Part shown: one piece after another, positions 51 to 17,700 of the stretch | How the letters are laid out: the number at the start of each line of letters is the position of its first letter | Position numbering within the stretch: the first letter of the stretch is position 1 | DNA from: Armatimonadota bacterium | GTDB lineage: Bacteria > Armatimonadota > Hebobacteria > GCA-020354555 > CP070648 | Length of the DNA stretch: 35,867 bases | Assembly (NCBI GenBank): GCA_035527535.1 | Contig: DATLAK010000185.1 | Span: 1 to 35,867 of the forward strand | Direction of reading: 5' to 3' | Translations under genes and position numbers: made by a program | Notes under the pieces: model-generated | What the model was told of the DNA's origin: nothing | The model's input: only the letters and a program-made list of their open reading frames with translations | The model's database searches: none

Positions 51-260
51 CACATCCGAGAGCACGATCCCACCCCTCGGCGCCTCAGCCCTCAAATCGG
101 TGGCTCAGCATACCGCTAATAGCAGACTTTCGCTGCGGGCCACTCGCTCGACTGCGGGGACGCCCCGTGTCCTTGTCAGGGACTCGTGAAGCCGGCGCAG
201 GTGAAGGGAGGGGAAGAACTTCCTCTGGGAGGCGAGTAGACGGGGATCAGGGATAAGATG

Positions 261-9262: not shown

Positions 9263-9392
9263 AGGACGGCGGCGCAGTTGACTGGAGTCATCTGTCCTAG
9301 TCAGGTGCCCGTGAAGCCGGCCTGCGATCGTGCCGCCAGCCTGTATGCGGTGGTTCGAGTGTCCGGGAAGAACCGGCACCCGATGCTACCCC

Positions 9393-9487
9393 ACACCCGC
9401 TTCGCGCAGAGCGCAGGCCGCTGCCAGTGGTCGCCACGGTGGACGATCGCCGGTACCGTGCCGCCCAGCGTCATGTGGCCGCGATAG
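9393..9487 (-). repeat. 3'-end gene fragment, copy A
   Basis: This 95-bp segment matches 14592-14686 with about 4 mismatches and also matches the equivalent part of copy B at 11202-11405. Read on the minus strand it encodes YRGHMTLGGTVPAIVHRGDH followed by WQRPALCAKRV, after which similarity to the other copies stops. It is a shorter piece of the same dispersed gene end. Confidence 0.7.
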
Positions 9488-9601
9488 CGGTTGTGGCTAA
9501 GCCTTCGGCGGCTAGGCCGCTGGTCGCCGCCCCGGCCGCAGGCCTATTGAGCTTCGCCTAGTATGTCGGACTTCCTGGACTGGTTGTGATATAGGGCGGG
9601 C

Positions 9602-9830
9602 ATGAAATCGCAATCGCAGCCCAGCTCGCCAAACGCATGGCGGGCAAGTCGCAGACGAGATTTCGCAGACCTGGAGAAGCGCCGCCGGGAAGCGGCCCGC
9701 CTGTTCGCCGAGGGCAATTCACGTGCGCAAGTGGCGCGCGCCTCGGGGGTTAGTGGCAAGCAGCCAGCAACTGGTTCCAGGCGTGGCAGCAAGACGGCGA
9801 GGAAGGCCTGAAAGCCGCCGGGGGGCGCTG
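9602..9830 (+). pseudogene. IS630-type transposase N-terminal remnant, frameshifted
   Basis: The first reading frame gives RRREAARLFAEGNSRAQVAR, then ASGVS, the helix-turn-helix found at the start of IS630-family and related winged-helix transposases. The continuation, NWFQAWQQDGEEGLKAAG, which normally follows directly, is in another frame starting near 9766. A frameshift between about 9755 and 9766 has therefore broken the gene. The catalytic DDE part is absent; after about 9830 the frame continues into unrelated sequence and on into the Kelch reading frame. No inverted repeats or target duplications were recognised. Confidence 0.7.
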
Positions 9831-10020
9831 GGCGCTGACGGCCGAGGGGAACCATCACTGCAGGTATGACCGGCGGGACCTGTACTGCATGTACCACCCA
9901 TGGAAGACCTCGAGGACCGGTGACCATGCCACGCTGACGATAACGGTGACCATCCCCAAGGGGTGGAAGCCGCCGTATGGAGTGGAGTCCTACTGCTCAG
10001 ACAGAGAGGATACGGCCATC

Positions 10021-10992
10021 ATGGATTCAACCATCGTCCCTTCCCATGGGGCGAACGGGTACCGCTGGACCGAGATTAGCCCGGCTGCGCCATTCGCACC
10101 GCGGGACGGGGCCGGCGCAGTAGTGTTTGGTGGGAAGATGTGGCTATTGGGTGGCTGGAACCCGACAGACAAGGAACACTTCCCCCAAGCATGTAACAGC
10201 GAAGTCTGGTCCTCCAAGAACGGCATCGACTGGCATCTGGAGAACCCTCGCGCTCCGTGGGAACCACGCCATACCGCGGGTTACGCAGTGCATAAGGGCA
10301 GAATGTGGATCGTTGGCGGCGATCCCCTACAGGGGCACTACCAGAACGACGTTTGGAGCAGTGGGGATGGTATCCACTGGGGTCTGGTATGCGACAAAGT
10401 TCCTTGGGCTGAGCGCGTGCTGCACTACACGCTGGTGCATGACGGCAAGATTTGGGTTATGGGCGGGCAGACCCTCCCACAGTTCGCCCCGGCGACAGAG
10501 GTGTTCTACAACGACGTCTGGAGTTCGAGCGATGGTGTTGAGTGGACTCGCGTCACCGCGCGCGCGCCCTGGCGGCCGCGAGGCATGATCGGTAGTTGCG
10601 CCGTACTCAAGGGCAGGATGTGGATCCTTGGCGGCGGCACCTACGAGACCCCGGCGACGCCCACGAGAGAGTTCTACAATGATGTCTGGAGTTCAGCTGA
10701 CGGCGTTAACTGGCAAAGGCACGTCGAACATGCGCCTTGGGATCCACGACAGTACCACGAAGTAGCTGCCTTTGACGACAGGTTGTGGGTGCTGGAGGGG
10801 ATGCACGGGGGGCGCAATCGGAATGACGTGTGGTATTCCTCTGACGGTGTCAACTGGCATGAACTGCCCAATACTCCTTGGGAGCCCCGACACGCGGCAA
10901 GTGTATGCGTTCACGACGACGGACTGTGGGTGATCGCAGGGAATAACATGTTCTCGGACGTATGGAAGCTCACTCGCGTGGGGACCCGTTAG
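10021..10992 (+). CDS. Kelch-repeat beta-propeller protein
   Basis: A 323-residue protein made of Kelch repeats of about 47-56 residues. Each repeat has a MW(I/L)(L/V)GG strand, then DVWSS.DG..W, then APW.PR and a variable strand ending in K/DGR. The glycine pairs are at MWLLGG, MWIVGG, IWVMGG and MWILGG, with weaker LWVLEG and LWVIAG. The N-terminal GYRWTEISPAAPFAPRDG and the C-terminal DVWKL complete one blade, giving a six-bladed ring closed in the usual way. No signal peptide is seen with the ATG at 10021, which has AGAGAGGA upstream. An ATG at 9889 in the same frame would add 44 residues. Kelch propellers are binding scaffolds, and some, such as galactose oxidase and sialic-acid mutarotase NanM, are enzymes; which kind this is cannot be told. 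It lies between two copies of the dispersed 3'-end repeat. Confidence 0.8.
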   Translation: MDSTIVPSHGANGYRWTEISPAAPFAPRDGAGAVVFGGKMWLLGGWNPTDKEHFPQACNSEVWSSKNGIDWHLENPRAPWEPRHTAGYAVHKGRMWIVGGDPLQGHYQNDVWSSGDGIHWGLVCDKVPWAERVLHYTLVHDGKIWVMGGQTLPQFAPATEVFYNDVWSSSDGVEWTRVTARAPWRPRGMIGSCAVLKGRMWILGGGTYETPATPTREFYNDVWSSADGVNWQRHVEHAPWDPRQYHEVAAFDDRLWVLEGMHGGRNRNDVWYSSDGVNWHELPNTPWEPRHAASVCVHDDGLWVIAGNNMFSDVWKLTRVGTR

Positions 10993-11435
10993 AGTATACG
11001 AGTATACGGGGAGGCTACGTGTACCGCGACAGGCGATGTGCAGGTGCTCCTGGTGTCGACGATACGCGGATGGATGCAACAGGCCCTGTAGTCGGCCATA
11101 GTCGAGATGATGGTTGCGTTTGATGCCGGTTGCGGATCTCAAGCACCGGTGAAACCAGGTGCGGGTGTCAGGCGCAGCTGAGACCAGCTCGAGTGGACTG
11201 ATACCGATCCTTCTGGGCACCTGGGCGGCCCAGCGGTCATGCAGGTCAGCCCGGCTGCAGGCCGAACACTCGCTCGGCGCAGAGCGCAGGCCGCTGCCAG
11301 TGGTCGCCACGGTGGACGATCTCCGGTACCGCGCCGCCCAGCGTCATGTGGCCGCGATAGATGAACATGCCCTCCTGATCGGTGATGGCGCCAGAGGCGC
11401 ACAAACGCCTTCCGGAAGAGGAGGCAAAGCTAAGT
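10993..11435. other. Intergenic region with repeat copy B
   Basis: Just after the Kelch stop the bases GTATAC occur twice (GTATACGAGTATAC, about 10996-11009). The segment up to about 11200 shows no recognisable gene. From 11202 it is repeat copy B, which ends shortly before the stop codon of the DUF4091 gene on the minus strand. Confidence 0.6.
11202..11405 (-). repeat. 3'-end gene fragment, copy B
   Basis: 204 bp that align without gaps to 14528-14731 with about 11 mismatches. On the minus strand both copies encode the same C-terminal peptide, ITDQEGMFIYRGHMTLGGAV and HRGDHWQRPALCA, ending FGLQPG and a stop codon, followed by about 60 bases that are also conserved. Most differences inside the frame are silent (I count five silent and three amino-acid changes), so the copies descend from genes that were once under selection. 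The N-terminal part of that gene is not present here. Confidence 0.8.
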
Positions 11436-14297
11436 CTAGTCATGGCTCCCCGCCGGCTGCAACCGATGCCGCAGGCGCTCGATATGGGTGGCCACCTCGT
11501 TCCGGTGAGCAAACATCACCTCCGAGTTCTTGGTAAACGTGGCCAGATCGCTGGAGATTGCCGGGCCAATCGTTAGCAGCGCCCGCGATCTCGCCACAAG
11601 CGCATCTCGGTCGTATGCATCACTCGCCTCCAACGCCTCCTGAAGCGATTGCAGAACAGCAAAATAGTCGTAGTCCTCCATGCCGTCACGGAAGATCTCA
11701 AGTCGCACGCTGCTCCAGAACGCACCCTCCGGTCCAGGATACACGAGTTGCGCCTCGCCGTTCACGTTCAGATAGGTCCATGCGTTCCACGGCACCTCCG
11801 GCCAGCGCTTCCCCAACGCGATCGCTCGGTCAATGGCAGGATCTCCAGACCACGGCACCATATTCGAGCCCCATTGATCCAGGCACCAGTGCAGCAGTCC
11901 CTTCGCCTGGTACTTCCAGCAGTGCCAGAAGGTCATGCGCTCTTCAATGCCCGTGTAGTCTACGTACCAGTTAGTGTAGGGACGTTTCATCGTCGGGCCG
12001 CCGTAGAACCACAGCTCGTCACCAGCGGCTTGACGCGCCGCCACCGCCTCGTAGTTGAACGCGTTAGCCGTCACGACCCACGTGTCGATGGCACCTTCTA
12101 GACCCTCCGCCGGCGGGGACGCCGTGCACACGCGGTTGAGCCCCGGGAAGTGCTTACCGATCTGCTCCATCGTATGCCGGACATCCGGGTATAGGCTTGG
12201 GTCTGGCTCATCGTGCGCGTATATGAACGCCATGTCGAGCAGGTCCTGCTCCTTCAGGTAGCTGTAATGCCGCTCGATTCGTGCTAGCGTGGCCTCTGGC
12301 AACGGCCACGAGGGCGCGCTGCCCAGTTGCACCGCATTCAGGCCCCGCTCCAACGCGAACTCGAAATTGTCAATAGGCTCAAGCAGGTTCCAACCGGTCG
12401 CCGGGTTGACACGATACCTGAGGAGAAACGCCATCTCATTGCGCCGTACGTGCTCGGGAATCTCGTCCCACCCGTTCCAGTCCCTGATGTATCCCTCATT
12501 CAGCCAGAAAACGGTCTTGAGCGCCGGCCACCGAGGCAAATCGAAATCGTAGACGCGCACACGAACCGGCACGACAGCGTGCGCGCCATCAGCCACACGA
12601 ACCTCCACGGTCCCCGTGTAGACGCCCGCCGGAGTGCCGTAGGGGATATGTAGGGACACCCAAACGGGCTGGTGAAGCCGATCTATCGGGACCGTGCGTC
12701 GTGCATCGGTCATTGGGATGAGCGGGTCCGGAAACCAGCCGATGTAGTCGATAGGATGACGCGGCTGGCGCGTCTCCACGAAGTCTACCCACTGAAACTC
12801 GAACTTCCCGGAAGGAATGGTGGCGCCACGGGGACCGCGCAGGTCTGATGCAGCCAACGAGACGTCGGCTAACTCGTCGCCGCCGGGGATTAGAACGAGC
12901 TGAAGGCCCTCGTACTCCCCACGTGCTGCTGCGATCTCAAACTCGTCGGCCAGCGGGCCGGCAAACGCGCGATCCCGGAGCAACTTCTCCAGGGTCGATG
13001 CCTTCCCTACGGCGAACGCCGCATCCCCCACGTCATGGTCCAGCCACCATTTGAGCTTCTGCGCTCTGCCAAGCAAACGCTCGAGCGGACTAGCGAGTCC
13101 GTGCCATTCCGCTACGGAAGTCTCCGCCTCTGCCAGCTGCGCACGCCTCTTCTTGGCCTCGCTCTCAAGCCGCACCAAGGACTGCCAAATCCATCGCGGC
13201 GCCAGCGAATCGCCTGCCGCCAGGCGATCGCGGACTCTGCCCAGAGTACACTGTGCCTCGTCCAGGGTCGCTCGGTTCGCCGGCACATTGACCGCGATGG
13301 ACTGCCGCAGGAACGGGCGTCCGCAGCCGCTCTCAGCCACTTCGAGGGTCACAATGCCAAGCGTGCCGTCAGGCAGTACATATGTCAGTGGTTGACGAAG
13401 ACGGCCACCCGCTGGAATGGAAACTTCTTTCGTAAGCAGGGTCTGCTTGCCATCTACTTCCTCTAGGATCAAGCGGATGTCCGCCGAGGCAGTGGACGCA
13501 CTGTGGTTCACGAACTGTACTGTCAACGGATTCTCGCCCACATGCGGAGGCGCGACTTCCTGCAACTCTGCGGTCAGCGCATTGTGACCGCCGAAATAGA
13601 CGTCACCGAAGTACTGCGGTTCGTAGAACCAAGCGTAGGTCACCGCCCACGAGGCGTTTCCTATTCGATTTGGAAGGCGGCGCCCCAGATTCATCCGCCA
13701 CGCGTCTCCCCTGTCCGGTGCAGGGACGTCGACCCCGGCGAGCGGCAGTGCGAGTTCGGCCGTCCACGAGCCGTTCTGCGTAGATGCTGCCCCCCGAGGA
13801 TCGGCACGCCACTGGCGTGCGCCGCCGCCGTACTGCCGTGTGACAAGATCGCCCTCCGACGTTAGCGCCGCTTTGTAGTATCGCTCAGGAGCGCCTGCGT
13901 CAATGAGAACCTCTGCCGTGGCGTCGCCGTCTGCGGGGGGGAAGGCAGGTGGCGCCTGACGTGTTGGCTCGGGACTAAGGCATCGAAACGCGACATATAG
14001 GTAGTCATCATCGTACGTCAGCCCCGCCTCAGTCACGAAGGGCGCGTACTCCCCCTGGTAGCACAGCGAAAAAGGCCGGACCCAGACTGCCCCGTCCCAT
14101 ACCGGCTCATCCAGGTTCCCGTCGATTACGGGGGCTGCGTCTGTGGCGGCAATGCGAATCGACGGCCGCCCGAACAAGGGCCGATCCCGCGGCGGTACTT
14201 GCTCCTTCGCCCAACATAGGGAGGCGGTCCGCGCAAGCACCAGAACCGCCACGGCTGTGGCCAGGACCCCCTTCCTCAGTACGCTCTTATCATCCAT
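11436..14297 (-). CDS. Secreted glycan-active protein with CBM9-like and DUF4091 domains
   Basis: A 953-residue exported protein. The start at 14297 (GGGAG 8 bases upstream) gives a signal peptide: MDDKSVLRKG, a hydrophobic run, then a small-residue cleavage zone ending in CWAKEQ. Residues about 35-230 fit a CBM9-like carbohydrate-binding domain (APVIDGNLDEPVWDGA; LTYDDDYLYVAFRC; WTAELALPLAGVDVP). A beta-sandwich and a helical linker (about 330-440) follow. The C-terminal half is a DUF4091 barrel, seen from FWLNEGYIRDWNGWDEIP through DMAFIYAHDEPDPSLYPDV, LWFYGGPTMKRPYTNW and LEIFRDGMEDYDYFAVLQ. DUF4091 proteins are glycoside-hydrolase-like, and the HDEP region holds the probable acidic active-site residues. 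Substrate is unknown. Direct copies of the same 3'-end repeat lie on both sides. Confidence 0.8.
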   Translation of the reverse strand: MDDKSVLRKGVLATAVAVLVLARTASLCWAKEQVPPRDRPLFGRPSIRIAATDAAPVIDGNLDEPVWDGAVWVRPFSLCYQGEYAPFVTEAGLTYDDDYLYVAFRCLSPEPTRQAPPAFPPADGDATAEVLIDAGAPERYYKAALTSEGDLVTRQYGGGARQWRADPRGAASTQNGSWTAELALPLAGVDVPAPDRGDAWRMNLGRRLPNRIGNASWAVTYAWFYEPQYFGDVYFGGHNALTAELQEVAPPHVGENPLTVQFVNHSASTASADIRLILEEVDGKQTLLTKEVSIPAGGRLRQPLTYVLPDGTLGIVTLEVAESGCGRPFLRQSIAVNVPANRATLDEAQCTLGRVRDRLAAGDSLAPRWIWQSLVRLESEAKKRRAQLAEAETSVAEWHGLASPLERLLGRAQKLKWWLDHDVGDAAFAVGKASTLEKLLRDRAFAGPLADEFEIAAARGEYEGLQLVLIPGGDELADVSLAASDLRGPRGATIPSGKFEFQWVDFVETRQPRHPIDYIGWFPDPLIPMTDARRTVPIDRLHQPVWVSLHIPYGTPAGVYTGTVEVRVADGAHAVVPVRVRVYDFDLPRWPALKTVFWLNEGYIRDWNGWDEIPEHVRRNEMAFLLRYRVNPATGWNLLEPIDNFEFALERGLNAVQLGSAPSWPLPEATLARIERHYSYLKEQDLLDMAFIYAHDEPDPSLYPDVRHTMEQIGKHFPGLNRVCTASPPAEGLEGAIDTWVVTANAFNYEAVAARQAAGDELWFYGGPTMKRPYTNWYVDYTGIEERMTFWHCWKYQAKGLLHWCLDQWGSNMVPWSGDPAIDRAIALGKRWPEVPWNAWTYLNVNGEAQLVYPGPEGAFWSSVRLEIFRDGMEDYDYFAVLQSLQEALEASDAYDRDALVARSRALLTIGPAISSDLATFTKNSEVMFAHRNEVATHIERLRHRLQPAGSHD

Positions 14298-14776
14298 GTG
14301 TGGTCTCCCGTTGCCCCCGATTCCCGAGGTGGACCTGGCTGAGAAATTCCCAAGCTGGCCCGCAATCATCCTACTTCGCTTCACCGAGGCCGTCAACCTC
14401 GGCTGTGCGGTTGTGCTTTGTTCGTGAGATTGTGCGCGGCCAGCAAGCGCCCACTCGTGCCGTTCGCGCGAATTGGTGAAGGCCTCCCGCACCAGTTAGC
14501 CAGCGGCGAGATCGGTGCGTCGGCTCGTATCGCTCCTTCTGGGCACCTGGGCGGCCCAGCGGTCATGCAGGTCAGCCTGGCTGCAGGCCGAACACCCGCT
14601 TCGCGCAGAGTGCAGGCCGCTGCCAGTGGTCGCCGCGGTGGACGATCGCCGGCACCGCGCCGCCCAGCGTCATGTGGCCGCGATAGATGAACATGCCCTC
14701 CTGATCGGTGATGACGCCAGAGGCGCACAAATGATGTGCTTGGGCGCGCAGGTCGGCTTGAGCTTAGATCGCTGCC
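14298..14776. other. Intergenic region with repeat copy C
   Basis: Upstream of the DUF4091 gene the frame stays open to 14492, but codons 14298-14492 are leader rather than protein because a signal peptide starts at 14297. Positions 14528-14731 are repeat copy C. I could not identify a promoter for the DUF4091 gene with confidence. Confidence 0.6.
14528..14731 (-). repeat. 3'-end gene fragment, copy C
   Basis: Same 204-bp unit as copy B at about 95 percent identity by eye, in the same orientation, on the other side of the DUF4091 gene and 3,326 bp away. It lies just past the 3' end of the GNAT fusion gene, in line with it but separated by its stop codon, so it is not part of that protein. 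Confidence 0.8.
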
Positions 14777-17700
14777 TCAGGGCAAGTGGCCGCAGCCCGA
14801 TAAGCAGCACCAAGGCTGCACTTGCCGTGCGGTGCCGCCGCAGGCAAGATAGAGCACAGAGCGCCAGCGTTGCCCCGGCTCCAGCGTGCCCCATGACCGG
14901 GCCACCAGATGGTACCCGTCGCGGCCGCTGAGGTCCACCCCCGCGCGCGCGGCGTGCAGCGAGCCGCTCGTCAGCAAGACGGCGCACCGGGCGGCGGGGT
15001 TCTCGACGATCCCCCACGGCGCGCAGCTCACCGAGACGTGATCGGGCCGCCGATGGCGCACCGCCCCCGGCTCGCCAGCCCGATGCACGAGTATGACGTC
15101 GGTCGGTTTGCCCCCGAGCGCCAGCCAGACATCAGCCCCGGCCTCGAAGCGAGCTGACGCCTCGTGCCGGTTGGCGCACGCGACGCCGAGCGCCAGCACT
15201 GGCAGGCCCGGTAGGAGCATGTACTCCAGCGTCAGCCGCACATTGCGGCCGCGTTCGTGCTTGGGCGAACAGGAGACCCCGATCCCCCGCCAGGTAGCGC
15301 CGCTGCGCCCCTGGCGCGAAATGAAGCGCGCGCGAAACTTCTCGTGGTGCAGCAGAGCCCCGAGGTCGCCGAGCTGCGGCCAGATGCCGCCGAACCAGGG
15401 GTTCCAATACATGAAAGGCCCCGCATCGGGGTACCCGGAGTGCAGCAGCTCGCGCCCCTGCCAGGTCAGCGATACGGCGCAGCCGCAAAACGCGGGATCC
15501 ACGCGCAGGGTCATGGGGGCCGCGCGCAGCGCGAGCACGCCGTCCTGCGCGCGCTCCTCGATCACGGGCGGCTGCTTGGGCAGCAGGACGAGCGGGAGGT
15601 CGCGGCGGTAGGTGACTTCCTCGAGCCGCAGCTCGGCGCGCGCGGCGGCGACGCCCGGCCGCGCGCGGCTTGCGGGCTTGACCCCGATCGTCGAGGCCAC
15701 GGGGTGGGCCTGGTCGAGATCGTCGAAAGCGATGATCCGCTGGTCGGCGTGCGCGCCCGGGGGCATCGCCAGGCGCAGCCGCCCCGACAGCTTCCGCCGG
15801 CCCGCGGAACGAGCAAAGGCGCGAACTTGCGCGCCCTCGGGCGTGACGATCGTCGGACTGGGTTCCAATCCGAACTCGATGGCGGGCGAGGAGGGGGCCG
15901 GCTCGCCCGCGCCAAAGGTGTCGGCTTTATCCCCGTGCAGCGTTTGCCACCACGAGCGAACGGCCTGCGCGCCGCCCGGGCCGGCGAAGACATGCAACGC
16001 CGGCGCCTCGGCCCGCGCGCCCGGCTGCAGGCGCCCCAGCGACTGCTGCACGCGCCACCCCTGCCGCTCGACCCGCGAGGCCTGCTCCCAGATCAAACCT
16101 ACCGCGTAGCCGCGCTCATCCCACACGCAGGTCCAGCCCTCGGGCCAGTCCGCGTCCTCGTCGCCTGCGCGCAGGTGGTACAGTCCAAGACCGGCGCCCT
16201 CACTCGGCGCTTCGCTGATACCACCGGGCGCGGGCAGACCCGCGTATTGCTGGTGCTCCTCCGCCCGGGCGTGGCGCAGCACCGTGAGGTCGAGCGTCTC
16301 GGCGGTGGTGTTGATGACGGCGTCGCGGATCTCGACCACCGGCCGATGCGTCAGGGCGATCCGCCGCTCCAGGAGCACGCCCGGGCGCTGCACCGACTCG
16401 CAGCGCACCACCGCCGTCAGCGCGCCCGCATGCCGCTCGATGGCGGCATCCAGCCGCCGGCCGGTGAAGAACTCCTGCCAAACGAACGGCGGCCCCAGCG
16501 CCGGTGGCGGCAAGCGGATCAACGAGATCGGCCCCGCCTTCTCCCCATCGCGCATCCGGTCGAACACGCGCAGATGGCCGCCGCGGTCGAGGACGACCCG
16601 CAGGCTGTCGCTCTCCAGGATGGCGCGATCCTCGTCCGCCGAGCCCACGAGGTCGCCCGGCCCGCGCGCGCGCAGGGCGACGCGGGCGTCCTTGGCGCGG
16701 ATAGTGCGCCGCCCAACCCGGAGGCTCACCTGCGCCGTAATGTCAACTTGCCCGGCCCCCTCGGGAGTCAGCAGCACCGGCACTTGTTTGCAGCTGTGGG
16801 GCTGCATCTGCAGCAATGCCGCCTGGCGTTTCATCCGCGCACCGCCGGGCGACGAGGCCGCCACCCGCACCCGCGCCGGCTGCTCCAGGTTGGACCGTAC
16901 CCGCAGCAGCACCTGCTGTTGCTGCCGCGGGCGCAGGGACACGAAGTCGCGCTCGACCTCCACGGCGGCGGGCTGCCGCAAGTCCATGCCCGCCGCCAGC
17001 TCCACGGGCTCGCCGTCGAGCAGCACCGCCGACCTGATAATGTGCGCGAAGGGCGCCTTCTCCTTGTCGCGGATATCGGGGGCCACCACGAACTCGGCCG
17101 ACCGCACCTCGCACCCGCGCACGGTGAATGACCCCTGGAAGTCGCACGCGATGCCGGGATCGGGCCGGCAGACGATTACCGCCTGCAAGTCGCGCCCGCG
17201 CTTGCTCTCGATCTCCCAGCGGATCGCCTGCGGCAGGTCGGCAATGACCTTCTCCCCCGGCAAGTAACAGCCGACCCGCAGCTCGTTGGTCTCGATCTCC
17301 AGCAAGCCCCAGGAGTGGCGGTCGAAGACCATCCGCAGCAGGTCACCATCGGCGCGCCACAGGTACTCGAAGGCCCGCACCTCGCCGTGGCGGTAGGCGT
17401 CCTCGAGCAGAGCGAGGTCGCGCACCTGAGTGTCGTACCAGTTGTGGCGCTCGAAGAACGGGCGCGCCAGGGGGTGGCGCAGCGCGAACGGGACGAAGTT
17501 GAGCATCCATGCCTGGGTCTCCGGCACCCACATGAAGCCCGCCTTCTTATAGAGCGGCACCGCCTTGAGGTTGCCCGCCCACGTGCCCAGATGCACCTGG
17601 TCGAAGCCCAGCTCCATCGCCTTCTCGACGCAGCTCAGGAGCACCGCTTTGCCGAAGCCGCGCCCGTGGTAAACGGGGTGGGCGTTGAGGTGTGGGATGT

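Follow-up and report, generated by a model that had tools for sequence, protein, structure and literature searches.

Introduction

The closest described relatives of the element discussed here are the IS481 and IS3 families of the rve DDE superfamily, with which it shares a single-ORF transposase that combines HTH and rve/rve_3 DDE domains. The best NCBIfam matches of its intact relatives are IS481 (4e-39) and IS3 (3e-38), but these relatives reach only 105–135 bits (best 134.7) against the curated cut-off of 224 for IS481 (NF033577) and 110–132 bits (best 132.2) against that of 160 for IS3 (NF033516). The group also differs from both families in an extra C-terminal tail of about 35 amino acids (ERRxFPDxRITAYRLAA) and in its terminal inverted repeat (TIR), which has the form TGTCCTTGTCAAG(N5-6)GTGAGACC and is sometimes doubled. 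The insertion sequence (IS) group looks undescribed but is of a known kind.

A second point of comparison is MITEs and other nonautonomous IS derivatives. Two 143-bp elements on contigs C5 and C107 of the source genome resemble them, having both TIRs and a deleted transposase. In contrast to MITEs, only two full 143-bp copies were seen, there is no clean target duplication, and the three copies at our locus are right ends without a left TIR. TIMEs are also nonautonomous, but they derive from Tn3-family transposons (PMC4133298), whereas the present element derives from an rve IS.

The window (35,867 nt) is the whole of contig C185, one of 192 contigs (3.24 Mb) in the genome assembly of a bacterium from Hebobacteria, a class within Armatimonadota (PMC10290634). 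It contains three broken copies of the right end of one transposon among ordinary genes. The repeat is real, but it is ordinary genomic debris.

Results

A sequence-only reading of the window had described three same-orientation copies of one gene's 3' end, which encode a common C-terminal peptide. This description holds: the copies (A, B, and C) all lie on the minus strand, the repeats are far above chance, and they are the longest and most similar repeats within the window. Copies B (11202–11405) and C (14528–14731) differ at 11 of 204 nt (94.6% identity), close to the 95% first reported, and a repeat search of the window returns them as direct repeats of 213 nt at 93% (11193–11405 and 14519–14731). 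The changes were said to be mainly silent, which is right (six silent and three amino-acid-changing among the nine differences in the ORF), but six of nine sites are too few for a firm claim about selection.

The extent first given for copy A (9393–9487) turned out to be too short. This stretch is a 95-nt block internal to A that is 95–96% similar to B and C. Copy A itself spans 9293–9545 (minus strand; the boundary at 9545 is approximate) and represents a decayed DDE-transposase IS at its right (3') end. For 218 bp (83%) it aligns collinearly with a copy on contig C107, a stretch that takes in a palindromic insert directly upstream of the YRGHM motif, and it ends in a TIR at 9293–9321. The transposase C-terminus occupies about 9331–9495 (HNRYRGHMTLGG..RTTAYRLAA); read from 9495 to 9331, it matches intact relatives at 56% (tblastn) and the transposase profile (A1) at 6e-17. 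The palindromic insert (CTAGGCC...GGCCTAG, about 9497–9545) lies inside the transposase gene and is common to A and the C107 copy.

Copies B and C are internally deleted transposase 3' ends (minus strand), in which ..SGAITDQEGMF is joined directly to IYRGHMTLGG..GLQPG and a stop, followed by a tail of about 64 bp. About 66 amino acids are gone, the catalytic Glu among them; in one relative (G012) the motifs ITDQEGMF and IYRGHM are about 200 bp apart. The last 64 bp of B and C are unlike the transposase tail of A, and the 5' half of the transposase gene is missing from all three copies. An additional transposase piece (APKHII, about 14731–14751) adjoins the 5' side of copy C outside the shared block and is absent from B. 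Free alignment detects no similarity between B and C beyond the 204 bp: the flanks do not match, and the homology ends sharply at 11202 and 11405. At the repeat edges, where the first reading proposed to look for recombination breakpoints, the copies part sharply: the likeness of A, B, and C ends at once outside the 95 bp, while A and the C107 copy remain collinear. Copies B and C would thus be descendants of one internally deleted copy.

A search of class relatives shows that the shared 49-aa peptide is the C-terminus of intact single-ORF proteins of 379–422 aa. These proteins carry HTH, rve, and rve_3 domains (PF00665, 1.4e-15), and D222, D281, and E317 are invariant in eight sequences (A1), forming a DD(35)E triad. 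With this triad in the rve domain of the parent and TIRs around the gene, the element is a DDE (rve) insertion sequence in the broad sense. What recurs in the window is therefore the C-terminal end of a defunct transposase gene, and the parent is not a host gene. Named matches come mostly from Candidatus Hebobacteria, with others in Planctomycetota, Acidobacteria, and Gemmatimonadota MAGs. A nucleotide-level search of 291 genomes of the phylum for further copies returned only a weak transposase match, and the best plasmid relatives of the transposase are only 23–27% identical.

Where they could be resolved, the ends of intact genes in relatives are TIRs of about 26–29 bp (TGTCCTTGTCAAGnnnnCGTGAGACC), sometimes in tandem; at four loci (L076–L079) the TIRs form inverted pairs around the intact gene, with profile matches at both ends. 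A weight matrix was built solely from the ends of relatives and then run on the window. Its four best matches start at 168 (24.4 bits), 9293 (19.8), 11160 (19.1), and 11131 (17.9), and the next best reaches 10.9 bits. Position 9293 is the outer end of A, 31 bp past the stop of an amidohydrolase gene, and 11131/11160 is the outer end of B; all are oriented as right ends. Since the profile comes from relatives only, these matches indicate that A ends at 9293 and B at a doubled TIR (11131–11188, plus strand, with units at 11131–11158 and 11160–11187; E 0.03–0.04 in the whole-genome TIR-profile search). The TIR lies 100 bp from the 95-bp block in A and 106 bp from it in B. For copy C there is a weak candidate at 14488 (104 bp; p about 0.05 at that place and 0.17 over offsets).

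No left TIR was found in the window for A, B, or C. Copies B and C also fail to qualify as MITEs with both TIRs, as B has right TIRs only and none is sure at C. The possibility that B and C are a MITE of their own with new TIRs was rejected (ends without significant inversion, p 0.16–0.26), as was that of their tail being a diverged A-type TIR (p 0.07–0.34). The top match in the window is a solo TIR of the same family as the ends of A and B (168–196, plus strand), identical at 29 of 29 nt to a TIR of the 143-bp element on C5 (blastn). No transposase remnant was recognised beside it.

When the source genome was searched for the repeat, as the sequence-only reading had advised, one further nucleotide copy (C107:6532–6625, 85%) and more remnants at the protein level were found. 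The transposase profile detects fragments only: at C107, C116 (contig end), C156 (contig start), C127, and copies A, B, and C. No intact parent gene is assembled in the source genome according to this search. The C107 copy keeps more of the transposase gene (model positions 237–389, with stops). C116 and C156 probably adjoin each other, as the end of the one and the start of the other share an exact 22-nt overlap inside the transposase remnant; this remnant holds two inserts of a CCTGTCCTGAGC(GCAG/TACG)TCGAAGG repeat.

The TIR profile matches nineteen sites in the genome, about ten of them at E below 0.05. C5:1037–1179 is a 143-bp element with both TIRs, inverted, and C107:8784–8926 is an 84% copy of it. 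The left 50 bp of the 143-bp element match the left end of intact relatives (scores of 31–34 vs. at most 17.5 in shuffles), and the right 93 bp match copy A (about 90%). Being short, flanked by both TIRs, devoid of a transposase, and present in more than one copy, these elements have the hallmarks of MITEs. Judged by their two ends, they are MITE-like internal-deletion derivatives that keep the transposase 3' end, a form that explains why transposase 3' ends can recur without the gene. The two elements are mosaic: their left parts are about 96% alike, their right parts far less so. A general 3' bias was not seen among class relatives, where about ten transposase stubs are 5' only. Neither C5 nor C107 nor any of the inspected intact copies showed a recognisable target-site duplication, and the window has no Rfam match to structured RNA.

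Two intact genes lie among the copies. A Kelch-repeat beta-propeller ORF (9889–10992, plus strand; Pfam PF24681, 8e-27), the real start of which may lie downstream, stands between A and B. A GH123/DUF4091-type glycoside hydrolase gene (11436–14297, minus strand, with an in-frame ATG at 14297; Pfam GH123_cat, 2e-19) stands between B and C, and its protein has a signal-like N-terminus (MDDKSVLRKGVLATAVAVLVL). Between copy A and the Kelch gene sits a frameshifted N-terminal HTH remnant of another transposase (9600–9860, plus strand; Pfam HTH_23, 3e-12), best matched by IS630 (NCBIfam, 8e-7, two frames joined). For the amidohydrolase adjoining A, the class yielded no homologue at E ≤ 1e-10. The region from 9263 to 14777 is an accretion zone in which transposon debris (A, the IS630-type remnant, B, and C) is interspersed with the intact Kelch and GH123 genes.

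Discussion

Our results are best explained by an insertion sequence and its internal-deletion derivatives that decayed and recombined, a reading to which we assign a probability of about 0.93. In this reading, the repeat is the right (3') end of an IS whose single-ORF DDE transposase gene, about 1.2 kb long, lies between TIRs of about 26–29 bp. Full copies or internally deleted derivatives settled in intergenic gaps of the region, in the same orientation, and then decayed. One copy, already deleted, may have given rise to B and C through duplication or retransposition, and recombination between copies may have produced the mosaic 95-bp block. Five observations count against this explanation: copy C has no convincing TIR, the 64-bp tail of B and C is unlike that of A, the homology of B and C ends sharply, no target duplication was recognised, and no intact parent is assembled. 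The earlier suggestion of 3' stubs shaped by exchange through recombination survives insofar as these are indeed 3' stubs with sharp breakpoints; what has to be revised is their source, as the stubs come from a transposase and mark the right ends of a transposon.

On how B and C came to be two copies, the evidence points two ways. The sharp ends of their homology, which lack target duplications, fit a segmental duplication better than a clean transposition, and the common 204 bp span both the internal deletion and the tail that is not transposase. The additional APKHII piece adjoins the block in C only, which makes B look like a partial copy of C. Yet B has TIRs at about the distance expected of a complete right end, and a random duplication of C would not bring such TIRs along. 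Transposition of a deleted element is favoured by the TIRs at B, local duplication by the sharp ends together with the extra piece at C. As a refinement of the insertion-sequence explanation, local segmental duplication of a degenerate relic, with GH123 coming to lie between the copies through a later rearrangement, is a serious but tentative option that we rate at somewhat under even odds. That a host gene was lost serially here is the least probable account, and the results already contradict it. Only 3' parts remain, as that account predicts, but the parent is a transposase with TIRs and not a locally lost gene, and stubs, 5' as well as 3', are found at unrelated loci of both the genome and the class.

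It had also been proposed that the Kelch and DUF4091 genes were inserted or exchanged at the repeats. One could argue that a composite (IS-flanked) unit, with B and C as its ends, brought in or can move GH123, and that A and B do likewise for the Kelch gene. IS-derived direct repeats do stand on both sides of GH123, the Kelch (60%) and GH123 (62%) genes have a lower GC content than the adjacent 1063-aa gene (71%, GC3 89%), and GH123 has only distant relatives in the class, none closer than 40%. However, some other window genes are equally low in GC3 (65–75%), and the two genes have opposite orientations. Intact outer ends with a target duplication were not found around GH123: neither unit showed an outer left TIR, and C offers no more than a weak candidate for its right TIR. 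The 1063-aa gene has orthologues that stand in other contexts, and synteny of the flanking genes is not conserved in the relatives examined; because the gene orders around the orthologues of the flanking genes do not match, no empty site was found. A composite unit is very unlikely. The Kelch and GH123 genes are ordinary neighbours of the repeats, and no evidence links them to the repeats. Hebobacteria is a class rich in GH123 paralogues. That nonautonomous right ends of this uncharacterised IS group shuffle single carbohydrate-degradation genes (Kelch, GH123) there, acting as borders for recombination or mobilisation, is, in our view, more doubtful still.

Identifying the IS leaves the picture of the neighbouring genes unchanged. 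What changes is that an apparently odd triplicated gene end can now be recognised as a set of transposon right ends, from an IS group that scores under the curated family thresholds. With TIR and transposase models built on this group, annotators could mark such debris in Armatimonadota MAGs and avoid short false genes.
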